DNA from: Chitinophagaceae bacterium
GTDB taxonomy: Bacteria > Bacteroidota > Bacteroidia > Chitinophagales > Chitinophagaceae
Assembly (NCBI GenBank): GCA_025449645.1
Contig: JANWIY010000107.1
Coordinates: 1 to 64,000 of the forward strand
Reading direction: 5' to 3'
Length of the DNA: 64,000 nucleotides
Part shown: one piece after another, positions 3,348 to 31,366 of the stretch
Layout: each line of letters begins with the position of its first letter
Position numbering within the stretch: position 1 is the first letter of the stretch
Notes under the pieces: generated by a model
Database searches by the model: none
Seen by the model: only the letters and a program-made list of their open reading frames with translations
Told to the model about the DNA's origin: nothing
Made by a program: the position numbers and the translations under genes

Positions 3348-4001
3348 ATGAAAATCATTATGTTATCAGCTATACTTCTAAGCATTTTTACGATCGCTTC
3401 CTGCCATTCATCATCAACACAACAAACCACTATGACCGAAGAGAAAATTCCGCCCGGAATCAAAACGGATACCGCCACTTTTGCAACGGGATGCTTTTGG
3501 TGCACTGAAGCCATTTTCCAGGAACTTAAAGGCGTACTTAAGGTAACCTCCGGCTATTCCGGCGGAACAGTCAGCAATCCTTCCTATGAACAGGTGTGTT
3601 CCGGAACTACAGGCCATGCAGAATGTGAGCAGATCATTTATGATCCCAAACAGATCAGTTTTGACGAACTCCTGGAAGTATTTTGGGAATCCCACGATCC
3701 AACATCCCTTAACCGCCAGGGTAATGACGAAGGAACTCAATATAGAAGTGCCATTTTTTATCATAATGCTGAACAAAAAGAAAAGGCGGAGCAGTATAAA
3801 AAGAAACTGGATCAGAGCGGGGCGTATGATAAGCCCATTGTAACGGAGATAACGGCCTTTAAAACATTTTATCCTGCTGAAAATTACCACCAGGATTATT
3901 ACAGGCTTCACGGATCACAACCATACTGCACTTTTGTAATCCGTCCCAAAGTGGAAAAATTCGAGAAGGTATTTAAGGATAAATTGAAGACTTCCAAATA
4001 A
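3348..4001 (+). CDS. msrA: Peptide-methionine (S)-S-oxide reductase, lipoprotein-type signal peptide
   Basis: ATFATGCFWCTEAIFQELKGVLKVTSGYSGG and the YFYHNAEQ/ENYHQDYY region; SPase II-like IASC at the N-terminus. Confidence 0.95.
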   Translation: MKIIMLSAILLSIFTIASCHSSSTQQTTMTEEKIPPGIKTDTATFATGCFWCTEAIFQELKGVLKVTSGYSGGTVSNPSYEQVCSGTTGHAECEQIIYDPKQISFDELLEVFWESHDPTSLNRQGNDEGTQYRSAIFYHNAEQKEKAEQYKKKLDQSGAYDKPIVTEITAFKTFYPAENYHQDYYRLHGSQPYCTFVIRPKVEKFEKVFKDKLKTSK

Positions 4002-16739: not shown

Positions 16740-17483
16740 ATGAAAAACAAAATAATGCCGCAGGGGCTGTCCGGGGCCCTTTTTATGATATATCTAACAA
16801 TAAATTCCCTCTCCGCAGCGGCGCAAGTGTTACCCCGCAGTGCCTATGGTCCGCAGGTCGTCAACAGTCTCCCGCTTTATTATCAATCATTAAAGGGTCA
16901 CCCTGAAAAAGAACTGAAGTCAGTGAAGCGTCCCGGTCTCGTTTCCGATCTGCAATATGCAACAGAAAATAATTACATGAACAGTGTGCTTTACCAGGAA
17001 AAGCCAAGGGCGATCTACCTGCGGCAACCCGTTGCGCAGGCACTTAACGGAGTACTGAAAGAATTATCAGAAACGGGTCTGGGTCTGAAGATTTTTGATG
17101 CATACCGCCCCTATTCCGTGACCATAAGGCTCTGGAAAAAGCTGCATGACGCACGATATGCTGCCGATCCTGCTGAAGGAAGCGACCATAACCGGGGGAT
17201 AGCTGTGGACCTGACGCTGCTGGATTTGAAAACACAAAAATCAGTCGATATGCCGACGGGATTCGACAATTTTACCGATTCCGCGCACCAGGATTTTATG
17301 GGGCTCAGCTCTGCTGTATTAATAAATCGAAATCGTCTGAAACGGGTGATGGAAAAATATGGATTCATTGCCCTGCGCACTGAATGGTGGCATTTCAGCT
17401 GGCCTCATCCGGAAAATTTTGACCTGCTCGACCTGAGTTTTAACGAACTTAAAAAAATAACGGACGAAGAAATGGAACACTGA
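16740..17483 (+). CDS. ddpX: D-alanyl-D-alanine dipeptidase (VanX/DdpX family)
   Basis: IFDAYRPYSVTIRLWKKLHDARYAADPAEGSDHNRGIAVDLTLLD...EWWHFSW zinc-site motifs. Confidence 0.9.
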   Translation: MKNKIMPQGLSGALFMIYLTINSLSAAAQVLPRSAYGPQVVNSLPLYYQSLKGHPEKELKSVKRPGLVSDLQYATENNYMNSVLYQEKPRAIYLRQPVAQALNGVLKELSETGLGLKIFDAYRPYSVTIRLWKKLHDARYAADPAEGSDHNRGIAVDLTLLDLKTQKSVDMPTGFDNFTDSAHQDFMGLSSAVLINRNRLKRVMEKYGFIALRTEWWHFSWPHPENFDLLDLSFNELKKITDEEMEH

Positions 17484-17501
17484 GCCGATTCGTAATCTTA
17501 T

Positions 17502-18509
17502 TTATTCTCCTGGCAATACCCTGGGGATCCGTTGTTCGAGCATAAGAAAATCTGCGAGTACTATGGCTGTGACTGCTTCCAGCACTACCGGAACGCGAAG
17601 GGCTATGCAAAGATCATGGCGGCCTTTTACAGAAAAGTTTTCCATTTTTCCTGATTCAAGGTTCAACGTGAATTGTTCTTTCGGCGTGGAGGATGTTGGC
17701 TTGATGGCAATTCGAAAAACCAGTTCATTTCCATTGGTAATGCCGCCCACTATGCCACCGGCATGATTGGTCAGGGTTTTCCCTTCCTTGTTCTCAATGG
17801 GATCATTGTGTTCAATGCCAAACATTTTCGCAGCTGCAAAACCGGTTCCGAATTCGATGGCCCTTACAGCAGGAATAGCAAATACTATGTGGGCGATCTG
17901 AGATTCCACGCTGTCAAAAAATGGTTCCCCCAGGGATGCCGGAACTCCGTCAACACGGCATTCCACAATACCGCCAACAGAATCCTTGGCATCGATAGCT
18001 TTCTGCAGGCCTGCTTCAATATCTTTTAATCCGCCGATCTCGGTAATTTCTGCCTGCACCCCAGTTTGAATTCTTTTTAATAATTTTTTTGCGACGACGC
18101 CTCCGGCAACCAGGGCTGCAGTAAGCCGGCCGCTAAAATGGCCACCACCGCGATAATCCTCAAAACCACCGAATTTTCGATGCGCCACAAAATCAGCATG
18201 CCCCGGCCTGGGAACGGCACGCAATTTTTCATAATCGGAGGAACGGGCATTATTGTTTTCAAATAATATGGTTATGGGTGCGCCAGTCGATCTCTCGTTA
18301 AAAATCCCGGATTTAAAAATCGGCAGATCGGATTCCTGCCTCGGAGTGGTTCCTTTCTGGGTCCCTCCCTTTCTTCTCTCCATGTCTTCATCAAAATCCT
18401 CAACGGTCAGCGGCAATCCTGCCGGGCAGCCGTCTATGATCAGGCCCACGCCTGTTCCGTGCGACTCACCGAAAATGGTTACCCTGAAAATGCGGCCAAA
18501 TGAATTCAT
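17502..18509 (-). CDS. aroC: Chorismate synthase
   Basis: MNSFGRIFRVTIFGESHGTGVGLIIDGCPAGLPL...RPGHADFVAHRKFGG. Confidence 0.98.
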   Translation of the reverse strand: MNSFGRIFRVTIFGESHGTGVGLIIDGCPAGLPLTVEDFDEDMERRKGGTQKGTTPRQESDLPIFKSGIFNERSTGAPITILFENNNARSSDYEKLRAVPRPGHADFVAHRKFGGFEDYRGGGHFSGRLTAALVAGGVVAKKLLKRIQTGVQAEITEIGGLKDIEAGLQKAIDAKDSVGGIVECRVDGVPASLGEPFFDSVESQIAHIVFAIPAVRAIEFGTGFAAAKMFGIEHNDPIENKEGKTLTNHAGGIVGGITNGNELVFRIAIKPTSSTPKEQFTLNLESGKMENFSVKGRHDLCIALRVPVVLEAVTAIVLADFLMLEQRIPRVLPGE

Positions 18510-18643
18510 AAATTAATATGGTATTGTCAAATTCCTATGAAATTTCTATTCAATTCCCCGATCTGATCATTTAGAACCGGAGCCTTCACCCAAACCCCTC
18601 AAGATGCAATCGGAACCGGGAGCTCAGCTGAATTGCATCAACC

Positions 18644-19942
18644 TCAATATATCTTATCCAGCAAATGAATCGATGCTCCCAGTTTTTCCAAATCCCTGAA
18701 AAATTCAGGATAGGACTTATTTATCGCGTCCGCTTTTTCTATCAGCACCGGACCATTCGCGCGCAATGCGGCCACGGCTGTAGCCATGGCAATCCGATGG
18801 TCATGGCGGGAGTGAACGGCGGCGGCGTTCAAGGTTTTTGCGCCCTTTATACCCATGGTATCCCCATTCACGAGAATATCAATTCCCAGCTTGGCAAACT
18901 CTTCCTGCAAAGTCAGCGCGCGGTTGCTTTCTTTGTGCGCCAGCCTGCCTGCGCCTTTTATAAAACTGGAACCATGACAACAGGATGCGAGGGCAACCAA
19001 GGGCGGGAACAAATCAGGGCAATCCGTCGCATCAAATTGAAAAGCTGTTAAGGTCCCCGGCTCATCTGCTCCAACACGAATTTCTTTGCCGGAAATCCAT
19101 ACCGGCACGCCCGTATCCCTCAAGGCCTGCAAAATGGCTTTATCGGCTTGCGCGGAATCGGGATCAAGTCCACGAACAGCACAGCCTCCCGCAATCGCTC
19201 CGGCAACCAGCAGGAATGAAGCTCCACTCCAGTCGCCTTCCACTGTGTAATTAACCAGATCGCCGGAGCGGATATGGGTTTCGCGCGAAAAACAAAAGGA
19301 TTCATAAGCCCGGTTATCCGGAATCTTCAGCCCGAAATCGCGCATAATCTTCAACGTTAGATCTATGTACGGCCGGCTGTTAAGGTTTGTTACTTTGATA
19401 CAGACATCTTTGGCATCGGCAGCTGCATACGCCATCAATAGCCCGGTTAGAAACTGGGAACTGAGCGAACCATCAGTTTGAATATTCCCGGGTATGAGCG
19501 GTCCCTTTATTTGCAGTGGAAGTTTGCCCTGATTCGAGATTACCTCAACGCCCAATTCGGGAAAAATTTCGTCAAAAAAGTCCATGGGCCGGTAAAGAAG
19601 GCTTCCTTCTCCCTCGATAGTCATCTGCCGGCTACAGAGCGCTACCAGCGGCACAAACATGCGAATACCCAGGCCGCTTTCGCCGCAGTTCACAAAATCA
19701 TTTACGGGTTGAATGCCCCGGCTGGTGATATGTAATGAACCGTCGGAGGCGTTATCGACCCTGGCTCCCAATCCCCTGATGACGCGTATGGCGGCGAGAT
19801 CATCATTGGATGATCCGGGGTTGCGTATGATACTTTCGCCTCCCGAAATCAAGGCCGCGGCGCAAGCCCGTTGCATGGAACTTTTGGATGCGGGAGCAGG
19901 AATCGTACCCCTGATGGAGGATGGTGAAATAGTGATATGCAT
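18644..19942 (-). CDS. aroA: 3-phosphoshikimate 1-carboxyvinyltransferase (EPSP synthase)
   Basis: CGESGLGIRMFVPL, DGSLSSQFLTGLLMA, SRHDHRIAMATAVAALRANGPVLIEKADAINKSYPEFF. Confidence 0.97.
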   Translation of the reverse strand: MHITISPSSIRGTIPAPASKSSMQRACAAALISGGESIIRNPGSSNDDLAAIRVIRGLGARVDNASDGSLHITSRGIQPVNDFVNCGESGLGIRMFVPLVALCSRQMTIEGEGSLLYRPMDFFDEIFPELGVEVISNQGKLPLQIKGPLIPGNIQTDGSLSSQFLTGLLMAYAAADAKDVCIKVTNLNSRPYIDLTLKIMRDFGLKIPDNRAYESFCFSRETHIRSGDLVNYTVEGDWSGASFLLVAGAIAGGCAVRGLDPDSAQADKAILQALRDTGVPVWISGKEIRVGADEPGTLTAFQFDATDCPDLFPPLVALASCCHGSSFIKGAGRLAHKESNRALTLQEEFAKLGIDILVNGDTMGIKGAKTLNAAAVHSRHDHRIAMATAVAALRANGPVLIEKADAINKSYPEFFRDLEKLGASIHLLDKIY

Positions 19943-19948
19943 CTTAAT

Positions 19949-20980
19949 TTATCTGGCCCTTGAAATGGAATAAATTAGTTTTTCGAGCTGGTTCATGGGG
20001 ATAGGCTTTATTACGGCTTTGCCAATCTTATCAAGCAACACATAGTTCATAATATCCCTTGTCTTTTTCTTATCCATCCGCATGACCTCCATGATCTTTC
20101 CCGGATCCGCATGGAGATCGGTAGGCAACCCGTATTTTTCCAGGAGGGCAGTCACTCTTGCGGTTTCCTTAAAATCCAGTAACTCCTCGGAAATCAGGCA
20201 GGCAGCCTTGATTCCAATGGATATTGCATGACCATGTGGAAGGTGATAAATATTTTCCACGGCATGACCTAGCGTATGTCCAAAATTCAACAGCTTGCGC
20301 TCACCTCCCTCAAATTCATCTTTCGAGACCACAGCGGATTTGATCATAACGTTCTTGCGGATCAGCCCGGCCAGCTCTTTCTTATTTTTTTTATAATAGT
20401 TGATTGCGTTTTTTTCGAGGTCCCTGAACAGGGAAGCATCTTTGATGGCAGCGTGCTTGATAACTTCGGCAAAGCCGTTCACCCACTCTTCGGGAGGCAG
20501 GGTTTGCAACAGGGTGGTATCGTAAAATAAAAACTTTGGTTGACGGATCGTTCCTACCATATTCTTAAAATGACGCACGTCAATTCCATTCTTTCCTCCG
20601 ATTGATGCATCCACCATGCCCAGGACCGATGTGGGAACGAAACCAAAGGGAAGTCCGCGCATATAAACGGAAGCGGCATAACCGGTGATGTCAGTGACCA
20701 CTCCGCCGCCGACGCCGACAATGGTGGTTTTACGGTCGGCCCCATATTCAATCAGCTGATCTATTATCTGATCGATGGTTTGCTGGATCTTATAAGTTTC
20801 CCCTGCAGGAATTACGATGAGTTTGGAACCTTTGAAATATTTTTTATGGGCGTTATAAACATGTTGGTCAGTGATAAAGATGCAGAGTTCTTTTTCCACC
20901 ACCTTATTTATCTGCGAAAAGGAAGCTTCAAAATAACAGGCGGTTCGGGATGAGGAAAAAGAATAGGTTTTCTTTTGCAT
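19949..20980 (-). CDS. aroB: 3-dehydroquinate synthase
   Basis: TTIVGVGGGVVTDITGYAASVYMRGLPFGFVPTSVLGMVDASIGGKNGID...LLNFGHTLGHAVE...MRMDKK. Confidence 0.98.
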   Translation of the reverse strand: MQKKTYSFSSSRTACYFEASFSQINKVVEKELCIFITDQHVYNAHKKYFKGSKLIVIPAGETYKIQQTIDQIIDQLIEYGADRKTTIVGVGGGVVTDITGYAASVYMRGLPFGFVPTSVLGMVDASIGGKNGIDVRHFKNMVGTIRQPKFLFYDTTLLQTLPPEEWVNGFAEVIKHAAIKDASLFRDLEKNAINYYKKNKKELAGLIRKNVMIKSAVVSKDEFEGGERKLLNFGHTLGHAVENIYHLPHGHAISIGIKAACLISEELLDFKETARVTALLEKYGLPTDLHADPGKIMEVMRMDKKKTRDIMNYVLLDKIGKAVIKPIPMNQLEKLIYSISRAR

Positions 20981-20994
20981 ATGGTAGTCCTGTC

Positions 20995-22080
20995 TTATGA
21001 ATTCATGATCTGATTCTGGTGATTGATGCTTTCCATATGCACTGCGTCAAAATATTTGGTTATGAATTCCTTACTCAGACCGAGTTTGTCTCCTTTTTTA
21101 AAGGCCCTTTCCAAAATGGCGTTCCATCGGTTGGTCTGCAGGATCGTAATATTATTTTCTTTCTTATACTTGCCAATCTTTTCAGATATTTTCATACGTT
21201 CACCAATGATCTGCATCAATTCGTCATCCAGGTGATTGATCTGCTGTCTTAATTTCTCCAGCGCCGCATGATATTCTTCCGAAGCCACATCTTCTTTTCT
21301 CCAGCGAATGCTGTTAAGCAGTTCTCCCAGTTTTTCCGGTGTGATCTGTTGTTTGGCGTCGCTCCAGGCTTTATCCGGGTCAACATGACTTTCAATGATC
21401 AGACCGTCAAAGTCGAGATCGATGGCCGTTTGAGCCACCTCCAGCAGAATATCGCGGCGACCGCAGATATGCGAGGGGTCATTGATGAATAACATGTCGG
21501 GATGCCTGCGCTTCATTTCGATGGCCAGATGCCACATGGGCGCATTACGGTATTCAGTGTTTCCGTAGGAGCTGAAGCCACGGTGTATAAGTCCGATTTG
21601 CCGGATACCTGCTTTGGCCACGCGCTCCACTGCGCCGATCCACAACTCCAGGTCGGGATTAATGGGGTTTTTAATAAGTACGGGCACATCCACACCCCGG
21701 AGCGCATCGGCTACTTCCTGCACGCTGAAGGGATTAACCGTTGTTCGGGCACCGATCCAGAGAACATCCACTTCAAAATGAAGTGCGTCCTCCACCTGCT
21801 TGGCCGTTGCCACTTCTACAGCAACCGGAATCCCCGTGAGTTTTTTTGCTTTTTGCAACCAGGGGAGCCCCTTGGTCCCTATGCCCTCAAAACTTCCGGG
21901 CCGCGTACGGGGTTTCCAGATTCCCGCACGCATCACGTCCACTCTACCGGTACGCTGAAGTTGCACTGCTGTCTCCATCACCTGCTCTTCTGTTTCGGCA
22001 CTGCAGGGGCCGGAAATGATCAAAGGCCGCTTGTTCCAGGCCTGTTGGGTAATTTCCTTCATTGATTTTGTTTCAGTCAT
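20995..22080 (-). CDS. Bifunctional DAHP synthase / chorismate mutase type II
   Basis: N-terminal KRPLIISGPCSAETEEQVMETA...MRAGIWKPRTRPGSFEGIG DAHPS domain, then C-terminal LRQQINHLDDELMQIIGERMKISEKIGKYKKENN chorismate mutase. Confidence 0.95.
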   Translation of the reverse strand: MTETKSMKEITQQAWNKRPLIISGPCSAETEEQVMETAVQLQRTGRVDVMRAGIWKPRTRPGSFEGIGTKGLPWLQKAKKLTGIPVAVEVATAKQVEDALHFEVDVLWIGARTTVNPFSVQEVADALRGVDVPVLIKNPINPDLELWIGAVERVAKAGIRQIGLIHRGFSSYGNTEYRNAPMWHLAIEMKRRHPDMLFINDPSHICGRRDILLEVAQTAIDLDFDGLIIESHVDPDKAWSDAKQQITPEKLGELLNSIRWRKEDVASEEYHAALEKLRQQINHLDDELMQIIGERMKISEKIGKYKKENNITILQTNRWNAILERAFKKGDKLGLSKEFITKYFDAVHMESINHQNQIMNS

Positions 22081-22086
22081 GTGTTG

Positions 22087-22198
22087 AAAATTAATAATTA
22101 AAAAGTAAAAAGTAAAAAGTAAAAACGGTGAAAAATTCAGCGCTTAAGAATCTAGTTCGTCTGTGTGCCAATTTTTTACTTTTTAATTTTTACTTTAC
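22087..22198. repeat. Intergenic heptad dyad repeat, AAAAAGT class
   Basis: Left AATTAAAAAGTAAAAAGTAAAAAGTAAAAA; right TTTTTTACTTTTTAATTTTTACTTTACC. Confidence 0.85.
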
Positions 22199-23862
22199 CT
22201 ACTATTCGCATCATTCATCCTAATCCTTCTTCCCTTGTAATTTTTTCCATCAATCGCGCGGATCATCTGGGGGGCCGATTTCCGGTCAATTTCAAGCCAG
22301 GTATTCATTTCCTTCATATCAATCTTGCCCAGCACCTCTTTTCTAAGATCGCTCATATCCAGCACAAATTGCAGAAAACTTGCCTTATAAAAACCGTCCT
22401 TCGTACCGAGATTTACAAACAGTTTCACAAAATCCCCGCTGCCTGATGAGAAGGTTTTGCGGGCAATACCATTCCCGATCGGAATGCGTTCCCGATGACC
22501 CCTGACAGGCACTTCTCTCGCAGATACGCGGACATTCAGGTCCTCCGAATTCTCATAATATTTAAGGAACCTGTCGAATTCCATGGCAGCAACTCTTTTC
22601 AATACCTCTTCCTTGCTGATGCCAGCAAACCTGTCGGCCAGCATGGGAACATAGGTTTCGTAATCGCCATGACTGATATCGGCCTCCAGCAATTTCTCCA
22701 TAAAATGAAAGAACTGTTTGCGGCAAACATCTTTCCCCGTAGGGACCTCCACTTTGCGAAAGGGAACCTGCACGATCCGTTCGATCTGTTTCAGTTTCCC
22801 GATCTCCCGCGAATGAATGATCGAAAGACAAACCCCGGTATTTCCTGCCCTTCCTGTTCTTCCGCTCCTGTGCGTGTATATTTCCACATCATCCGGCAAT
22901 TCGTAGTTTATCACATGAGTTATTCCATGCACATCAATTCCACGGGCAGCCACGTCGGTTGCAATAAGTAATTGCAATGTCTTCTCCCTGAATTCGCCCA
23001 TCACTTTATCCCGTTGCTGCTGCGTAAGGTCTCCATGCAGTGCATCAATATTATATCCCTCCCTGGTGAGTTTTTCTGCTATATGCTGCGCATCGGCTTT
23101 GGTTCGGGTAAAAATGAGCCCGTAAATACCCGGATTGAAATCGATCAACCGCTTCAGCGCTTCATAACGGTGATGTGCATTCGTAATAAAATACTGGTGG
23201 TCCACCATTTTGTTGGCTGTGTTCATCTTGCCAACGGTAATTTCCAGCGGCTCCTTCATATACTTGCGACTCACCCGTTTAATTTCAGGCGGCATAGTGG
23301 CGCTAAACAACCAGGTAGCATCGCGCTTCGGGGTGTTCTTCAGTATGAATTCTATATCATCCTGAAATCCCATGTTCAGCATTTCATCGGCTTCATCCAA
23401 AACCACATACTTAATTTCCTCGAGGTTGATGGCCTTGCGTTCGATCAGGTCGATCAGGCGTCCGGGTGTAGCCACGACAATCTGGACTCCACGCCGGAGA
23501 TCCCTTATCTGCATCCCGATCGAAGAACCACCATACACGGCAAGTACCTGAACTCCTGGCATGAATTTTTTAAAAAGTTCAATCTCACTTACGATCTGCA
23601 TGCAAAGTTCCCGGGTCGGACACACCACCAATGCCTGCGGAATCCGATGCTCTACCTGAAGGAGCTGCAACAGGGGAAGCCCGAATGCCGCTGTTTTACC
23701 AGTTCCTGTTTGGGCCAGACCTACGAGATCCTTCGTTCCGCTTAAAAGAACAGGTATTGCCTTCTCCTGTATGGGTGTGGGTTCGGTAAATCCAAGCGAG
23801 GCCACTGCCTTCAAAAGATGCTCACTCAATCCCAGCCCTTCAAATGTGCTCATACGGTTCAA
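22195..23862 (-). CDS. DEAD-box RNA helicase with C-terminal DbpA-like RNA-binding domain
   Basis: AQTGTGKTAAFGLPLLQ, VLDEADEMLNMGF, FSATMP, HRSGRTGRAGNTG; C-terminal FVNLGTKDGFYKASFLQFV. Confidence 0.95.
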   Translation of the reverse strand: MNRMSTFEGLGLSEHLLKAVASLGFTEPTPIQEKAIPVLLSGTKDLVGLAQTGTGKTAAFGLPLLQLLQVEHRIPQALVVCPTRELCMQIVSEIELFKKFMPGVQVLAVYGGSSIGMQIRDLRRGVQIVVATPGRLIDLIERKAINLEEIKYVVLDEADEMLNMGFQDDIEFILKNTPKRDATWLFSATMPPEIKRVSRKYMKEPLEITVGKMNTANKMVDHQYFITNAHHRYEALKRLIDFNPGIYGLIFTRTKADAQHIAEKLTREGYNIDALHGDLTQQQRDKVMGEFREKTLQLLIATDVAARGIDVHGITHVINYELPDDVEIYTHRSGRTGRAGNTGVCLSIIHSREIGKLKQIERIVQVPFRKVEVPTGKDVCRKQFFHFMEKLLEADISHGDYETYVPMLADRFAGISKEEVLKRVAAMEFDRFLKYYENSEDLNVRVSAREVPVRGHRERIPIGNGIARKTFSSGSGDFVKLFVNLGTKDGFYKASFLQFVLDMSDLRKEVLGKIDMKEMNTWLEIDRKSAPQMIRAIDGKNYKGRRIRMNDANSR

Positions 23863-23907
23863 AAATTTTGCGCAAAGGTACTATTTTCTGTGCGGAAGGG
23901 CTTTTTG

Positions 23908-24018
23908 ACGGTTGATGTATGATGGTTGATAGTTAATGGACATTTGGTGCGAATTCCCACTTGTTATCGATCAACTTTAATGCCTTTGCTTCCCATCAAC
24001 CATCAACCATCAACCATA
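23908..24018. repeat. Intergenic heptad dyad repeat, GTTGATG class
   Basis: Left arm GTTGATGtatGATGGTTGATAGTTAATGG, core GGTGCGAATTCCCAC, right arm CCATCAACCATCAACCATCAACCAT. Confidence 0.85.
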
Positions 24019-24024
24019 ATCATC

Positions 24025-24873
24025 TTATCTCAAAATCCTTCCAATCTTATTTGCATTTTCCATAAGCTCCCGGAGATAAGGGTAATTCTCCTTTTCCAGG
24101 CAACTCTTGAATTTCTTCAGTTGCATGATATGTTCATTTAGTACGTCCAATACGTTTTCCCGGTTTTGCATGAATATTGGAGCCCACATGGAGGGGCTGC
24201 TCTTCGCTAGCCTCACGGTACTTTCAAACCCACCGCCCGCAAGCTCGAAAATGGCATCTTCCTCGCGTTCTTTTTCGAGCACCGTGTTTGCCAATGCAAA
24301 TGAGGTAATATGGGAAATATGGCTTACATAAGCCGCATGCATGTCATGACTTTGGGCATCCATATAAACCAGGGACATGCCGAGCAACCGGTAAATCTTT
24401 TCCATGACCTCCAGCGCATCCGGTGCCGATTTTCCTTTTTCACAAATAACGCAGGAGCGTCCCCGGAATGCGTCGTGCACGGCGGCTTCAGGCCCGCTGA
24501 ATTCTGTACCCCACATCGGATGCGTTGCAACAAACCGGCTTCGCATGGGATGAGCCGCCAATGCTTCGCACAGGGCCTGCTTCGTTGAACCTGCGTCGGC
24601 CACGATTTGTCTTTCTGTGATCAGGTCCATGATCGTTCTCATAACCGTTAGCGTCACATCCACCGGGATCGCCACATATATCAGGTCACTTTGCCTTACC
24701 GCCTCCTCCAGCGGAAGCATTTCGTCAATGATGCCCAGTTCGAGGGCGCGGCGGGCACTCTCCCCTGTCCGGCTGACGCCGATCACCTTGCTGACCAGTT
24801 GGTGATCCTTCAAGGCCAGGCTGAAGGATCCGCTGATCAAACCCACCCCAACGACTGTAACAGTATTAAACAT
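24025..24873 (-). CDS. tyrA: Prephenate dehydrogenase
   Basis: TVVGVGLISGSFSLALKD...VADAGSTKQAL...FVATHPMWGTEFSGPEAA. Confidence 0.92.
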   Translation of the reverse strand: MFNTVTVVGVGLISGSFSLALKDHQLVSKVIGVSRTGESARRALELGIIDEMLPLEEAVRQSDLIYVAIPVDVTLTVMRTIMDLITERQIVADAGSTKQALCEALAAHPMRSRFVATHPMWGTEFSGPEAAVHDAFRGRSCVICEKGKSAPDALEVMEKIYRLLGMSLVYMDAQSHDMHAAYVSHISHITSFALANTVLEKEREEDAIFELAGGGFESTVRLAKSSPSMWAPIFMQNRENVLDVLNEHIMQLKKFKSCLEKENYPYLRELMENANKIGRILR

Positions 24874-26062
24874 GTTTTAATGATTTAAGAGTGCCTGCCT
24901 TCTTTACGCGTGCTATAGACTCTAATATATTTTCTTCCGGTGCACATAAACTGACCCTGACAAAATCATTTCCCCCGCTGCCGAAAATGCCCCCGGGAGT
25001 AACGAATACCCGCGCATTATATAATAAAAGATCGCTGAGTTCATAACCATCTTTCATCGTTTCCGGAACCCTGGCCCAAACAAAAAGGCCGGCCTGTTTT
25101 TTGGAATACTGACAGCCCAATTCATCCAGCAAAGCTTCAGTCGCCAATTTTCTTTTGCTGTAAATGGAATTGACCTGATTATACCAGGACGGAGGAAGAG
25201 ACAATGCTTTGGCTGCCGCAAGCTGTACCGGCAAAAACATGCCGCTGTCCATATTGCTCTTAAATATTAGCACTTCATCCACGCGTTCTTTTGAGCCCAC
25301 AAGCATGCCTACACGCCAGCCAGCCATATTGTGTGATTTACTCAGAGAATTCAATTCTATAACATGGGTCCTGGCGCCCTCCACGCTCATCAGGCTAACC
25401 GGTTCTTCATTCAGAATAAAACTGTAAGGGTTATCATGAACCAGCAATACCTTGTTTTCTTTTGCAAATGCCACGAACTTTTCAAATATTCTTTTATCAG
25501 CAACTTGTCCCGTCGGCATCTGCGGATAGTTCAGGAAAAGCAATACCCATTCCTGTCCCGGCTTTTTTTTCCCAATCAGGGTTTTCAGTTCTTCAAAATC
25601 GGGATTCCAGTTATTTCTTTCAAGCAACTGATAGGTAGATACATCGCCTCCCGCCAGGCTGGCCGCACTCCGGTACGTGGGATAACCCGGATTTGGGATA
25701 AGCACCAGATCGCCCGGATTGATATAGGTCATACAAATATGCATGATTCCTTCTTTGGACCCGGCCAGCGGCAGGATTTCCCGGTCAGGATCAAGGCTGA
25801 CACCATACCACTGCATATACCAGTCGGCCATGGCTTTTCTAAGTACCGGTGACCCTTTGTAACTCTGGTAACTATGTGCTGTGGGTTTGATACTTTCTTC
25901 ATTCAATACCCGGATCACGTCAGCGTGCGGAGGCTGATCCGGACTGCCGATTCCCAGACTGATAATTTTTTCCCCTTCTCTGTTAAGTTTTTCGATCTCC
26001 CGCAGTTTGCCGGAGAAATAATATTCACCAATGCCATTTAATCGCTGCGCAGTGTTAATCAT
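24866..26062 (-). CDS. Class I/II pyridoxal-phosphate aminotransferase (start set at MINTAQRLNGIGEYYF)
   Basis: LGIGSPDQPPHADVI...NPGYPTYRSAASLAGG...ELNSLSKSHNMAGWRVGMLVGS. Position between pheA and tyrA suggests an aromatic aminotransferase. Confidence 0.9.
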   Translation of the reverse strand: MINTAQRLNGIGEYYFSGKLREIEKLNREGEKIISLGIGSPDQPPHADVIRVLNEESIKPTAHSYQSYKGSPVLRKAMADWYMQWYGVSLDPDREILPLAGSKEGIMHICMTYINPGDLVLIPNPGYPTYRSAASLAGGDVSTYQLLERNNWNPDFEELKTLIGKKKPGQEWVLLFLNYPQMPTGQVADKRIFEKFVAFAKENKVLLVHDNPYSFILNEEPVSLMSVEGARTHVIELNSLSKSHNMAGWRVGMLVGSKERVDEVLIFKSNMDSGMFLPVQLAAAKALSLPPSWYNQVNSIYSKRKLATEALLDELGCQYSKKQAGLFVWARVPETMKDGYELSDLLLYNARVFVTPGGIFGSGGNDFVRVSLCAPEENILESIARVKKAGTLKSLKHV

Positions 26063-26147
26063 ATATTTAAGCTTAACGTATAAATCGTTGCCGGATGACG
26101 GTTGACGGTTAATAACCCATAACACATAATTCATAACTCATCAGTAT

Positions 26148-26987
26148 TCAAGCATTCAATCCCTTCTTATATACCCCATAGATTTTGAATTCCGAAGTAA
26201 CGGGTTTTACCATTTTCACCACTTCTTCAAACTGTTCTCTTGTATCAAATTCCATATCTGCATGAAAACTATATTTCCAGTCGCTACCGGGAATCGGATA
26301 AGATTGCAGCTTACTCAGATTAATTCCTCCTTCGGCAATAAGGGTCAGCACCCGCGCCAGGCTTCCTCTGGAATGATCCGTGTGAAAGGTAACGGAGGCC
26401 TTATTTGCATCATTGACGATTTCCACTATTTCCATTCTCTGCAGCACAAGGAAGCGGGTGTAATTGTTTTGCATAGTTTGAATATCCGGAGCAAGCATTT
26501 CGAGGTTAAATAGTTTCGATGCCAGCGCACTCCCGATGCCGGCGATATGCTTACTCTTTCGCTGATGAATATGCTTTGCACTGAGGGCAGTGTCCTCTGT
26601 TTCAATCAGCTTCCAGTCGTACTGATTTAGGTAATCAAGACACTGGAGGATAGCCATCGGATGGGAATGCACTTCATGAATATCCTTGAGTGTAACACCA
26701 GGATTTACCAGCAGGTTCTGGCGGATCTGCAAGTATATTTCACCGGAGATCATTAAGCTGCTTTTGCGCAGCAGGGAATAATTGGGAAGAATGCTCCCGG
26801 CAATGGAATTTTCGATAGCCATCACGGCTGCATCACAAAGCGTTTTGTCTTCCGCTGCTCTTATCACTTCCTCGAAGCGCGCGCAAGCCTGGATGCCAAT
26901 TTGCGCTCCAAAAAGGATTCGTGCAGCTTCCTCATGAAAACTGCCTTCGAAACCCTGAATGGCTACCCGTTGAATTTGTTGCTGCAT
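26148..26987 (-). CDS. pheA: Prephenate dehydratase
   Basis: VAIQGFEGSFHEEAARILFG...AVMAIENSIAGSILPNYSLL...ACT region SRGSLARVLTLIAEGGINLSKLQSYPIPGSDWKYSFHADMEF. Confidence 0.95.
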   Translation of the reverse strand: MQQQIQRVAIQGFEGSFHEEAARILFGAQIGIQACARFEEVIRAAEDKTLCDAAVMAIENSIAGSILPNYSLLRKSSLMISGEIYLQIRQNLLVNPGVTLKDIHEVHSHPMAILQCLDYLNQYDWKLIETEDTALSAKHIHQRKSKHIAGIGSALASKLFNLEMLAPDIQTMQNNYTRFLVLQRMEIVEIVNDANKASVTFHTDHSRGSLARVLTLIAEGGINLSKLQSYPIPGSDWKYSFHADMEFDTREQFEEVVKMVKPVTSEFKIYGVYKKGLNA

Positions 26988-26992
26988 ATAAT

Positions 26993-27021
26993 AAAAAAAA
27001 ATCCCGGCTTTTGACCGGGAT
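26993..27021 (-). terminator. Intrinsic terminator in the pheA leader (attenuator)
   Basis: Minus strand ATCCCGG-TCAAAAG-CCGGGAT (7 bp perfect stem, 27021..27001) followed by TTTTTTTT (27000..26993), 5-6 nt before the pheA ATG at 26987. Confidence 0.9.
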
Positions 27022-27041
27022 GTTATTGTTAAGATTTTAGA

Positions 27042-27131
27042 TTAGTTGGTTTTTAACAAAAGCCTTCCCGGTCTGCTGGTAAAGTAGAAAAAATAAAATC
27101 CGAAGGAACGGTATGCTTTTGAATTGAACAT
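27042..27131 (-). CDS. Phe/Tyr-rich leader peptide of the aromatic amino-acid operon, 29 aa
   Basis: Minus strand ATG TTC AAT TCA AAA GCA TAC CGT TCC TTC GGA TTT TAT TTT TTC TAC TTT ACC AGC AGA CCG GGA AGG CTT TTG TTA AAA ACC AAC TAA = MFNSKAYRSFGFYFFYFTSRPGRLLLKTN*. Below the ORF-track length cutoff. Confidence 0.88.
   Translation of the reverse strand: MFNSKAYRSFGFYFFYFTSRPGRLLLKTN
27066..27073 (-). promoter_or_regulatory. Candidate antiterminator segment of the pheA attenuator
   Basis: Minus-strand GACCGGGA inside the leader ORF is the exact reverse complement of TCCCGGTC (27020..27013), the terminator 5' arm plus first loop bases. Confidence 0.75.
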
Positions 27132-27140
27132 ATACAGCCT

Positions 27141-27171
27141 CAAAAATAATCACTTCCGTTGACCCGGCAAA
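27141..27171 (-). promoter_or_regulatory. Bacteroidota-type promoter for the aro/phe/tyr operon
   Basis: Minus strand TTTG (27171..27168), 19 nt spacer, TATTTTTG (27148..27141), fitting the TTTG / TAnnTTTG consensus. Confidence 0.7.
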
Positions 27172-27197
27172 TTTTTATTTTAATACGATCCCCTGGA

Positions 27198-27277
27198 ATT
27201 GATGGTTGATGGTTGATGGCCTTTATGTGCCAATTCGCACCCGATTTCCATCAACCATCAACTATCAACCATCAACC
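27198..27277. repeat. Intergenic heptad dyad repeat, GTTGATG class
   Basis: ATTGATGGTTGATGGTTGATGG ... GTGCCAATTCGCAC ... CCATCAACCATCAACTATCAACCATCAACC. Confidence 0.9.
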
Positions 27278-27282
27278 TTTTT

Positions 27283-27849
27283 TCATTCCCCCAATCTCTT
27301 ACTCTCAAACGCCTCCACCAAACGGAACAGGTGAAAAGGTTTGAATGTACGCCAGTCGGGCTGTTCCATCAGGTCCATATACCGGTCCAGCCTTGCCCTG
27401 CGAAAATCATATTGTGTCTGTTCAGGCATATTAATACAAACTATCCATCCCCCATTTTCCAGAACCTCTTCGCTCCATTCTTCATAATAGTCTTTGTCCC
27501 CACTATGAAAATTGAGTACGTTTTCTGAAATGAGAATGAATTTGTAAATCCCCTGAAACATAAATTTGTCGGCTACCACCCGCTTCAGGCTCATGATATC
27601 ATTTTCAATCGCATCGTTCCATTCACCGATCAATTCTATAATAGCATATTTTTCTTCATAATCAGCCAGGATTACTTTCAGATATAAGGTATGCGACCCG
27701 AAATCGTCCCACTGGGGATGGATAAGATAATTATAAATGGCCTGGGAATATTCAAATTCCGAATACACCCTCCCATAAAAAGGTGAGCGTTCATCTTCTT
27801 CGCTTATATAGATATGGCGCCAGTTAAAGTATGGTTCTATGTCGTGCAT
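27283..27849 (-). CDS. Conserved hypothetical protein (start set at MHDIEPYFNWRH)
   Basis: Long ORF with typical coding composition. The longer ORF-track N-terminus (MMGFNWKSAPEVHQLSTING...) is translated repeat sequence. Confidence 0.6.
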   Translation of the reverse strand: MHDIEPYFNWRHIYISEEDERSPFYGRVYSEFEYSQAIYNYLIHPQWDDFGSHTLYLKVILADYEEKYAIIELIGEWNDAIENDIMSLKRVVADKFMFQGIYKFILISENVLNFHSGDKDYYEEWSEEVLENGGWIVCINMPEQTQYDFRRARLDRYMDLMEQPDWRTFKPFHLFRLVEAFESKRLGE

Positions 27850-27885
27850 TTGGATGATCAAAATTAGGAATTTCCCGCTGTCGCC

Positions 27886-27958
27886 GTTGATGGTTGATAG
27901 TTGATGGACCTCAGGTGCGGATTTCCAATTGAATCCCATCAACTATCAACCATCAACC
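27886..27958. repeat. Intergenic heptad dyad repeat, GTTGATG class (perfect 22 bp arms)
   Basis: GTTGATGGTTGATAGTTGATGG (27886-27907) and CCATCAACTATCAACCATCAAC (27936-27957) are exact reverse complements. Confidence 0.95.
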
Positions 27959-28770
27959 TTTTTCCTGCTCTCTGCCGCCTTCTTGACGCTTCCATATTTC
28001 AACAGCAACGCTTTGGCGGTTTCATAATCCTTAATTCCGGATTGGTTCATCAGCATGCGTGTTCCCCGATCTATCAGTTTGCTGTTTGTGAGTTGCATGT
28101 TTACCATCCGTGTATCTTCCACCCGGCCGATCCGGATCATTACTGAAGTGGAGATCATATTCAAAATAAGTTTCTGGGCGGTTCCGCTTTTCATACGTGT
28201 ACTACCTGTAACGAATTCCGGCCCCACGACCACTTCAACAGGAAAATCTGATACCGTGGCCAGGGGAGTTCCTGGATTGCAGGTAACGCAACCCGTACTG
28301 ATCTTATTTTTCCTGCAGGTTTCCAGCGCGCCAATCACATAAGGCGTTGTACCGCTCGCAGCAATTCCGATAACCACATCCTTCGGGCTCACTTCGTAAT
28401 CACAGAGATCCAGCCAGCCCTGATCCCGATCGTCTTCCGCATTTTCGACGGGCGTGCGGATAGCCTCCTCACCACCTGCAATCAATCCGATGATCAAGCC
28501 ATAGGGCATACCAAAGGTTGGCGGAATTTCGCTGGCGTCCAGAATACCCAGCCGCCCGCTGGTACCTGCCCCAAGATAAAAAAGTCTTCCGCCAGCCAGC
28601 ATTTTATCGGTGATATGCTCCGTGAGTTTTTCAATTTGCGGTATTGCTTTGCCCACCGCTTTCGGAACCTGTTGATCTTCCTTATTCATTAAGGTAAGGA
28701 GTTCGCGGATGGTCATCTTTTCGAGATGGCGGTACTGGCCCTGCTCTTCCGTAATTTTTTCGAATGCCAT
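27946..28770 (-). CDS. murQ: N-acetylmuramic acid 6-phosphate etherase
   Basis: GRLFYLGAGTSGRLGILDASEIPPTFGMP...GIAASGTTPYVIGALE...TGSTRMKSGTAQKLILNMIST. Confidence 0.97.
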   Translation of the reverse strand: MAFEKITEEQGQYRHLEKMTIRELLTLMNKEDQQVPKAVGKAIPQIEKLTEHITDKMLAGGRLFYLGAGTSGRLGILDASEIPPTFGMPYGLIIGLIAGGEEAIRTPVENAEDDRDQGWLDLCDYEVSPKDVVIGIAASGTTPYVIGALETCRKNKISTGCVTCNPGTPLATVSDFPVEVVVGPEFVTGSTRMKSGTAQKLILNMISTSVMIRIGRVEDTRMVNMQLTNSKLIDRGTRMLMNQSGIKDYETAKALLLKYGSVKKAAESRKKVDG

Positions 28771-29615
28771 TATATTGATTTATGATAAGCGATCAATCCA
28801 TCCATCGGCTTTTGCAACACTTTGCCCAAATCCCATTTGTACATGCCACAGAGTTCTTTTAGCGTATCCCGAAATCCATAGGCAACACCGCCAACAAAGT
28901 GTACCGGCGTCTTCCAGATCTCCGGGAATTTGCACAAATGGGCAAAGAAAAAATCATTGAGCCCGTCCTCAATGATATTCTCAATCATAAAATGTCCCCT
29001 GTTTTCTGCCAGAAACATGGCATAAGAAGCAATATAACGGTTCGGAAGAGGCTTTTTATAAACATGATCAAGAATTTCAGCTGCCTCAACATGGTATTTC
29101 TGATTGAATTTCAATGCAAGCGTTTCGTCGAAGGTCTTATACAAGAAATACTGTAACACTTTCCTGCCCAGATATGCCCCGCCGCCTTCATCGCCAAGTA
29201 TAAAACCAAGACCCGGACTATTCGTTATAATTTTTCTTCCATCGAAATACCCGGAATTACTGCCCGTGCCCAGGATGGCAACTACCCCACTCTTATTTCC
29301 ACAAAGTGCCCTGGCCGCTCCGGTAAGATCGTTTTCCACTGATGACTGCGCTTCCGGAAAGACCTTTTTTAAAGCCCTTTTCACCAGAGCACGGTTGGAG
29401 GCGGCCGCACAGCCCGTTCCATAGAAGAATATAAAAGATGGGCGCAGGTTTTTAAGGGCTGGCACCAATTCCTTTTGCATCAGTTCAATAAGCTGGGACT
29501 CATTTAAGAAATAGGGGCTTGCACCCTGGGTTTCGATGATCTTTTTCTTCCTCCCCTGCTGAAGCAAACACCATTCGCTCTTGGTAGATCCGCTATCGGC
29601 AATCAGTATGGTCAT
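28770..29615 (-). CDS. BadF/BadG/BcrA-type ATPase, N-acetylglucosamine/muramate kinase-like (start set at MTILIADSGSTKSEW)
   Basis: ILIADSGSTKSEWCLLQQG...VVAILGTGSNSGYFDG...GFILGDEGGGAYLGRKVL; adjacent to murQ. Confidence 0.85.
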   Translation of the reverse strand: MTILIADSGSTKSEWCLLQQGRKKKIIETQGASPYFLNESQLIELMQKELVPALKNLRPSFIFFYGTGCAAASNRALVKRALKKVFPEAQSSVENDLTGAARALCGNKSGVVAILGTGSNSGYFDGRKIITNSPGLGFILGDEGGGAYLGRKVLQYFLYKTFDETLALKFNQKYHVEAAEILDHVYKKPLPNRYIASYAMFLAENRGHFMIENIIEDGLNDFFFAHLCKFPEIWKTPVHFVGGVAYGFRDTLKELCGMYKWDLGKVLQKPMDGLIAYHKSI

Positions 29616-29749
29616 TAATTTGAGTTTTCTTCCGGTAAATATCCTGGACGAAGGTATAATGCAATTTTTGACAAACCATTCATCCGGAACTTTCAACCCG
29701 GTTCGGCTCATTTGCTTAATTTGCAGCCGACTACGGAGAAATTAAGTAA

Positions 29750-31366
29750 ATGAAAAAACTGAAAGTATGGCTGCCCCTCTTATTTGCGGTAGTCATGATC
29801 ATGGGAATGCTGATCGGGTTCAGACTTTATCCCAACGTCAACACCGGCGGATTCTTTAAAACAGGGAAACTCAACCGGGTGCAGGAGGTACTCGATATCA
29901 TTGACAATAAGTATGTGGATTCCGTGAATACAGACTCCATGAGCGAGGACGCTATAGGGGGAATGCTCGCCCATCTGGACCCGCATTCCTATTTCATTCC
30001 CGCCATCGACCGGGAAGAGATGAATGAAGATCTGGAAGGGAATTTTGAGGGCATCGGCGTTGAATTTCAGATCCTGAGCGATACTGTAAATGTCATCAAC
30101 GTGCTGGCCGGCGGCCCAAGTGACAAAGCAGGCCTGCAGGTCGGTGACCAGTTTATTAAGGTGAATGATTCCCTGGTCGCCGGCAACGGGATAACACCTG
30201 AAAAAATAAAGAAGTTATTACGCGGTCCCGGCGCAAGTACTGCTGACCTGCAAATGCTGAGGGAACATGCATTAAAGACCTTCCGTGTTATGCGGGGAAG
30301 CATTCCATTGCCCGCACTTGACGCTGCGTATATGCTAAACAGGGAATCAGGTTATATCCGTATCAATAAATTTTCACGAACCACTTATCAGGAATTCGAG
30401 GATGCCCTCCGGCAGTTGCTAAACCAGGGTATGAAAAAACTCGTGCTGGATATTCGGAGCAACGGAGGAGGAATTGTGGATGAGGCCGTAAACATGGCCG
30501 ACGATTTCCTGGGAAATGATGAACTGATCGTATACACGGAAGGAAGAAAAAGTCCGCGTAAAGAATATCATGCGCAGCGTCCGGGGAATTTTGAAACCGG
30601 AAAGCTGATCCTGCTTGTTGACGAAGGCACAGCCTCCGCGAGTGAGATCCTTGCGGGAGCTTTACAGGATTGGGACAGAGCAACCATCGTCGGTCGCCGC
30701 ACTTTCGGCAAAGGCCTGGTACAAGAACCATTCATGCTTAGCGACGGCAGCGAATTGCGCCTGACCATCGCGAGGTACTATACTCCGCTTGGGCGCAGCA
30801 TTCAGAAGCCTTATAATAAGGGTCGGGAAGCTTATGACGACGAAGTCATTGAGCGATTTCATAACGGCGAAGCCATCCATGGTGATACGTCAACAACCCA
30901 CACTGGCCCCATTTACAAAACACCCGCGGGAAGGATCGTTTATGGCGGCGGCGGCATCACCCCGGATGTATTTGTTGGATTCGATACAAATCGCATCTCC
31001 AAGAGCATTACATCTTTATACCTGAATGGCACCCTCGGCAATTTTGTTTACGAATATTATATTCATCATCTGAAGGAATTCAGGCAGTTCAAGGATGCTG
31101 CTGATTTTTCAGCAAGGTTCAATAAAGATGAGGATGTATGGCGGGGCCTTGGCAATTATGTTATTAAGGATTCCATTTCCCTGGCTACCATTTCCACGCC
31201 AGACAAGCATCTGCTTCAAACGAGGATAAAAGCGCTGCTGGCCAGGCTGGTCTGGCGTTCTGAAGGATATTTCATGGTCATGAACCAAAGCGATCCGGTA
31301 ATGAAAAAGGCATTGGAACTATTGAATACAAACAGTCCAATGCCTTCGGCGGGAAAACCGCACTGA
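29750..31366 (+). CDS. S41-family C-terminal processing peptidase with PDZ domain
   Basis: YVDSVNTDSMSEDAIGGMLAHLDPHSYFIP, PDZ region, GKLILLVDEGTASASEILAGALQDWDRATIVGRRTFGKGLVQ. Confidence 0.95.
   Translation: MKKLKVWLPLLFAVVMIMGMLIGFRLYPNVNTGGFFKTGKLNRVQEVLDIIDNKYVDSVNTDSMSEDAIGGMLAHLDPHSYFIPAIDREEMNEDLEGNFEGIGVEFQILSDTVNVINVLAGGPSDKAGLQVGDQFIKVNDSLVAGNGITPEKIKKLLRGPGASTADLQMLREHALKTFRVMRGSIPLPALDAAYMLNRESGYIRINKFSRTTYQEFEDALRQLLNQGMKKLVLDIRSNGGGIVDEAVNMADDFLGNDELIVYTEGRKSPRKEYHAQRPGNFETGKLILLVDEGTASASEILAGALQDWDRATIVGRRTFGKGLVQEPFMLSDGSELRLTIARYYTPLGRSIQKPYNKGREAYDDEVIERFHNGEAIHGDTSTTHTGPIYKTPAGRIVYGGGGITPDVFVGFDTNRISKSITSLYLNGTLGNFVYEYYIHHLKEFRQFKDAADFSARFNKDEDVWRGLGNYVIKDSISLATISTPDKHLLQTRIKALLARLVWRSEGYFMVMNQSDPVMKKALELLNTNSPMPSAGKPH

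Follow-up and report, generated by a model that had tools for sequence, protein, structure and literature searches.

The stretch of DNA analysed here (the window; 64,000 nucleotides of a Chitinophagaceae contig, JANWIY010000107.1) carries an aromatic amino acid operon beginning with pheA, and the region just upstream raised the question of how this operon is controlled. An earlier note had read the region as a ribosome-mediated transcription attenuator, and the strings on which it relied (the leader ORF, GACCGGGA, the terminator, and the pheA ATG) were all present on the minus strand at the coordinates it gave. On that strand, a Bacteroidota-type promoter, the leader ORF, two antiterminator segments, and a strong terminator precede pheA in this order (Table 1). 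Four features of a classical attenuator, namely an aromatic leader ORF, a terminator before pheA, an antiterminator exclusive of it, and a biosynthetic operon, are present. Conservation, covariation, spacing, and the operon supported this interpretation, and the element is very probably a ribosome-mediated transcription attenuator through which the supply of Phe and Tyr would control the whole aromatic operon. We infer from the sequence that the ribosome mediates control, where transcription starts, and that translation, stalling, termination, and a response to Phe and Tyr take place.

Table 1. Features of the pheA leader region and of the operon in the window.
Feature	Position	Strand	Basis
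-33 element TTTG, predicted leader promoter	27168..27171	minus	sequence read; 19-nt spacer to the -7 box
-7 box TATTTTTG (TAnnTTTG)	27141..27148	minus	consensus match
Leader ORF, 29 codons, MFNSKAYRSFGFYFFYFTSRPGRLLLKTN and stop	27042..27131	minus	ATG 27131, TAA 27042; sequence read and relatives
Segment 1 CAAAAGC, candidate partner of GCTTTTG (1:2 hairpin)	27115..27121	minus	conserved complementarity, little covariation
Putative aromatic sensor codons FGFYFFYF (TTC GGA TTT TAT TTT TTC TAC TTT)	27081..27104	minus	sequence read
Segment 2, antiterminator 5' arm GACCGGGAAGGCTTTTG	27057..27073	minus	covaries with segment 3
Outer antiterminator helix, 5' strand GACCGGGA	27073-27066	minus	sequence read
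Inner antiterminator 5' arm TTGTTAA	27053..27059	minus	pairs with TTAACAA; covariation and predicted fold
Inner antiterminator 3' arm TTAACAA	27026..27032	minus	covariation and predicted fold
Segment 3 TCCCGGTC, common to antiterminator and terminator	27013..27020	minus	sequence and covariation of both helices
Intrinsic terminator ATCCCGGTCAAAAGCCGGGAT and T8	26993..27021	minus	stem 27021-27001, T8 27000-26993; covariation
pheA, prephenate dehydratase, first gene of the operon	26148..26987	minus	ATG 26987; protein-family matches
Aminotransferase, tyrA, DEAD-box helicase, DAHP synthase/chorismate mutase, aroB, aroA, aroC	17502..26134	minus	family matches

For PheA, the NCBIfam prephenate dehydratase models were the best matches, yet below their own cut-offs; the Pfam PDT match was above its cut-off in this genome. 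The operon described in the earlier note, with pheA, tyrA, and the shikimate genes, was borne out and is conserved in relatives: the gene order was the same in 69 large loci, with the aminotransferase in 69, tyrA, aroG/CM, aroB, and aroA in 68, and aroC in 66. The genes that follow the putative attenuator (pheA, tyrA, and the shikimate genes) make the very amino acids that would be sensed. A DEAD-box RNA helicase gene (22195-23862) lies inside the operon, between tyrA and the DAHP synthase gene; a homologue occupied the same place in about 30 of the 69 relatives, and in the others it was located before pheA or was absent from the locus.

When genome contigs were searched with PheA as the query, 80 loci were obtained, the informatively titled ones being mostly from Chitinophagaceae. 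Upstream sequence was present in 79 loci, which formed a 79-sequence alignment; the spacing statistics were based on 78 sequences including that of the window, with one duplicate row left out. The leader proposed in the earlier note proved to be conserved: a small ORF containing a run of Phe and Tyr codons, together with a GC-rich terminator, preceded pheA in all 79 loci, including several in which the automated script had overlooked the terminator. The weakest aromatic runs were those of L061 and L069; the leader of the latter, whose start had been missed by the automated start-codon search, was taken from the alignment. In a specificity scan of the 80 related loci, covering up to 300 nt upstream of 1309 gene starts (pheA starts counted), 66 starts combined a small ORF dense in Phe/Tyr codons with a strictly defined terminator; all 66 were pheA, and no other gene start showed the combination. 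With an E cut-off of 0.1, a covariance model of the leader matched 197 of 249 same-family genomes; the weakest among them are uncertain, and one second match was a trpE leader. Phe/Tyr-rich leaders and terminators of different sequence were also found in 22 of 26 pheA upstream regions from other Bacteroidia families, where segment 2 mostly lay 6-13 nt past the run. At L146, L149, L153, L166, and L177-L182, from some other families of the class and order, pheA had no aromatic leader or terminator upstream.

Among the eight last codons before segment 2, 591 of 624 across the family leaders were Phe or Tyr codons (TTT, TTC, TAT, or TAC). T and C interchanged freely at the third positions of the run, as is expected if the amino acids matter. 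In each of the 78 measured leaders, the final ten residues of the run included at least two Tyr and at least three Phe, and we read the leader as a sensor of both amino acids.

The pheA terminator was the best terminator-like site within 17000-29800. In the 79-sequence alignment, 94.9% of the cells of the terminator helix were paired, with two-sided changes at 6 pairs. The antiterminator, composed of an outer RCCGGGA:TCCCGGY and an inner TTGTTRA:TYAACA helix, was paired in 87.6% of its cells, and one pair of the inner helix had 20 two-sided changes. Two-sided cells numbered 37 for the terminator compared with 3.8 in shuffles, and 41 for the antiterminator compared with 14, values reached by 0 of 500 shuffles in either case, although these counts are not probabilities because the sequences are related. 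Compensatory changes in the 2:3 and 3:4 stems, the check proposed in the earlier note, were found in both, and slid-register controls gave far lower paired cells and covariation scores. Since the two structures both use segment 3, they are mutually exclusive. The stretch extending from the antiterminator arm through the T-run folded more stably than expected by chance (z -2.7); the folding energy of the whole 183-nt leader region was not significant (z -1.0) and was dropped as support.

The 1:2 pairing differed from what had been supposed. The hairpin CCTTC:GAAGG suggested earlier was found in the window genome only and was ruled out, as it is not kept in relatives. CAAAAGC:GCTTTTG may be a better candidate, the helix CAAAAGCAT:ATGCTTTTG being paired in 75.6% of cells compared with 44-48% in slid registers, with little covariation and with the complementarity held in another register in some lineages. 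The match between GGCTTTTG and CAAAAGCC in the terminator loop is real, but it does not explain the conservation of GCTTTTG, which is kept even where the loop differs; this pairing was rejected as the cause.

The spacing of these elements fits a reading ribosome. In 60 of 78 leaders, segment 2 began exactly 8 nt past the final Phe or Tyr codon (range across leaders 7-11), approximately the point that the front of a ribosome would reach with this codon in its A site; were the ribosome to stall on that final codon, it would overlap segment 2 by 1-2 nt. In 77 of 78 leaders the stop codon was positioned between -6 and +12 nt relative to the inner arm's end, so that a terminating ribosome would cover this arm. 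The proposal that the ribosome masks the antiterminator at the stop codon was thus retained in part: the antiterminator segment is present, but in most species the ribosome would cover the inner arm TTGTTRA and not GACCGGGA.

Folding was further calculated under ribosome masks whose footprint edges are general-knowledge values. With this assumed footprint, the window leader gave 0.70 for the terminator in the free state, 1.00 for the antiterminator upon a mid-run stall, and 0.82 for the terminator with the ribosome at the stop codon. In most relatives, equilibrium folding under the same masks favoured the terminator even when stalled (mean 0.73); as the terminator won in all states, equilibrium folding across relatives was uninformative as a test of the switch. 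In transcripts ending before segment 4, the antiterminator formed in all states, including that without a ribosome. Given that the terminator is favoured at equilibrium even upon stalling, the antiterminator has to form first, while transcription is under way, for the switch to work, and we infer that timing must decide between the structures.

The attenuator would then operate as follows. RNA polymerase would initiate a few nucleotides upstream of the leader's start codon, and a ribosome would load on the leaderless or nearly leaderless RNA. When Phe-tRNA or Tyr-tRNA is short, the ribosome would stall within the FGFYFFYF run with its leading edge at or before segment 2; segment 2 (ACCGGGA...TTGTTAA) would pair with segment 3 (TTAACAA...TCCCGGT) to form the antiterminator, and the polymerase would continue into pheA. 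When Phe and Tyr are both plentiful, the ribosome would reach the TAA and cover the inner antiterminator arm, segments 3 and 4 would pair, and transcription would stop at the T-run to yield an RNA of approximately 145 nt.

Other explanations of the hairpin have to be weighed against this attenuator. The co-directional upstream gene (27283-27942) ends about 260 nt before the hairpin, which might accordingly be its ordinary terminator, with the small ORF present by chance. However, the upstream genes vary (nagK, murQ, or DUF genes in about 26-28 of 69), whereas the leader and terminator remain with pheA; moreover, the interval separating the upstream gene from the leader contains a promoter-like box, and the aromatic codons persist even as their third positions vary freely. 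We consider this origin extremely unlikely. Action on translation, in which the hairpin would hide the pheA start and not terminate transcription, would suit this genome, where 13 nt separate the end of the stem from the pheA ATG; it appears very unlikely from the relatives, in which the terminator stem ended 12 to 192 nt (median 44) before the start of the pheA match, whereas the stem and the T-rich tail were kept.

The leader could also encode a small functional protein, with the RNA pairings being secondary. N-terminal KAYR and RPGMLLL-like C-termini are common among the related leaders and favour this explanation, but the KAY and LLL codons overlap paired RNA segments. The C-terminal part was in other frames in 9 of 78 leaders and was widely divergent, with 56 different octapeptides among the 78, and segment 2 was kept as RNA though read in another frame (9/78), indicating that it is selected as RNA. 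Together with the covariation of both helices at the RNA level, this makes a functional protein scarcely credible, and attenuation by the ribosome remains the preferred interpretation.

The start of the leader transcript was predicted from the promoter. The published Bacteroides promoter consensus is TTTG/TAnnTTTG (PMC7366714). A perfect TAnnTTTG was present in 66 of 79 leaders, and in 64 of the 79 the box preceded the start codon by 4-10 nt, compared with 42 of 1348 control gene starts (box at 3-10 nt). In Flavobacterium psychrophilum, the TAnnTTTG box lies at -12 to -5, and leaderless mRNAs account for just 5.5% (PMC9723704). A box at this position would place the transcription start near 27136, leaving a 5' UTR of approximately 5 nt in the window. 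The leader mRNA is thus predicted to be leaderless or nearly so, with a 5' UTR of 0-6 nt in 64 of 79 leaders. Shine-Dalgarno sequences are not recognised by Bacteroidia ribosomes (PMC9976891). In most of the leaders from other Bacteroidia families the promoter box was not near the leader ATG, and the near-leaderless start is therefore claimed for Chitinophagaceae only. Between the upstream gene and the leader promoter, at 27199-27278, there are GGTTGATGGTTGAT repeats with the inverse CCATCAACCATCAACCATCAA about 40 nt on, which are possibly a terminator or a repeat hairpin.

The enterobacterial pheA leader contains Phe codons and is not known to contain Tyr codons. This system (Rfam RF01859, Phe_leader) likewise has an aromatic-codon leader, mutually exclusive antiterminator and terminator, and pheA as the first gene. 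Unlike RF01859, the window leader has Phe and Tyr codons, precedes a whole Phe/Tyr/shikimate operon, and has a predicted near-leaderless start that leaves no space for a Shine-Dalgarno sequence. The window scored 20.1 bits against RF01859 (gathering threshold 55, E 0.5), which is below threshold, and no Rfam match at threshold to the window element was found. In the trpL attenuator of Sinorhizobium meliloti, the ATG of the leader ORF is the 5' end of the transcript (PMC7298713); this system responds to Trp and belongs to another phylum, whereas mostly 0-6 nt are predicted before the ATG here. Bacteroid-trp (Rfam RF01692), a leader RNA before trp genes in Bacteroidetes (PMC2864571), serves another amino acid than the window element.

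According to a 2021 report, F. psychrophilum has a transcribed, structured pheA 5' element that is conserved in Flavobacteriaceae and without an Rfam match, as well as signs of leader-peptide attenuation before amino-acid operons (PMC9723704). A putative attenuator upstream of pheA-hisHb-aroA-aroQ-tyrA in Bacteroides thetaiotaomicron appears in Table 7 of a 2005 report (PMC1173090). The passages covered from these two reports give no leader peptide, pairing partners, covariation, or Chitinophagaceae cases. We found no description of the Chitinophagaceae leader peptide or its pairing in the literature covered, which lacked most subscription papers and one comparative attenuation survey.

Leaders for other amino acids were observed in the same genome. 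A poly-Cys leader, MKRIILHTCCCCCCCQVARFIGWRS and stop (L220:2078-2155; G000:C18, about 3577-3654), is followed by the terminator CCCCACCCAGGTGGGG with a T-run and by a cysM-like (cysteine-synthase-like) gene from L220:2223. Most of the same-genus loci fetched had a C4-C7 leader there, often ending in VEDDLL before the stop codon and usually with a AGCTCCAC...GTGGAGCT-type terminator; the element looks like a cysteine attenuator in Bacteroidota. Upstream of hisG, a His leader, MKIFLTIHHHHTLPNR and stop (L217:1205-1255), was accompanied by the terminator GGGGCTTATCGAAAGGTAAGCCCC with a T-rich tail. A Trp leader, MTKKLINNTWWWHTNSDRGA and stop, on the reverse strand of L219 precedes a terminator and trpE, as does MKNNITNKYWWWHTNFLRGL and stop in the relative G294 (L218, about 1223-1286); the trpE leader of G294 resembles Rfam Bacteroid-trp, just below threshold (41.7 bits, gathering 49). 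The Trp, His, and poly-Cys leaders in the same genome suggest a general regulatory style. We lean slightly toward the view that Chitinophagaceae, and in part other Bacteroidia, make general use of attenuators read by ribosomes (for Phe/Tyr, Trp, His, and Cys). In this view, several of them would lie on ORFs with little or no 5' UTR, translated by ribosomes that disregard Shine-Dalgarno sequences, and one leader would sense Phe and Tyr jointly.

If this is true, transcription-translation coupling would be needed over at least the first 100-150 nt in this phylum. The combination of Phe and Tyr codons, the predicted near-leaderless start, and the occurrence in this phylum are what set the element apart. 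It would provide a well-supported attenuator that can be tested directly in Bacteroidota, where leader-peptide control was merely hinted at before, and the coupling of ribosome and RNA polymerase in the phylum would become measurable. The alignment and covariance model can serve as a template for annotating the element. Furthermore, the attenuator would explain how one operon answers two end products, and would represent a case of translation start, as predicted, on near-leaderless RNA without a Shine-Dalgarno site.
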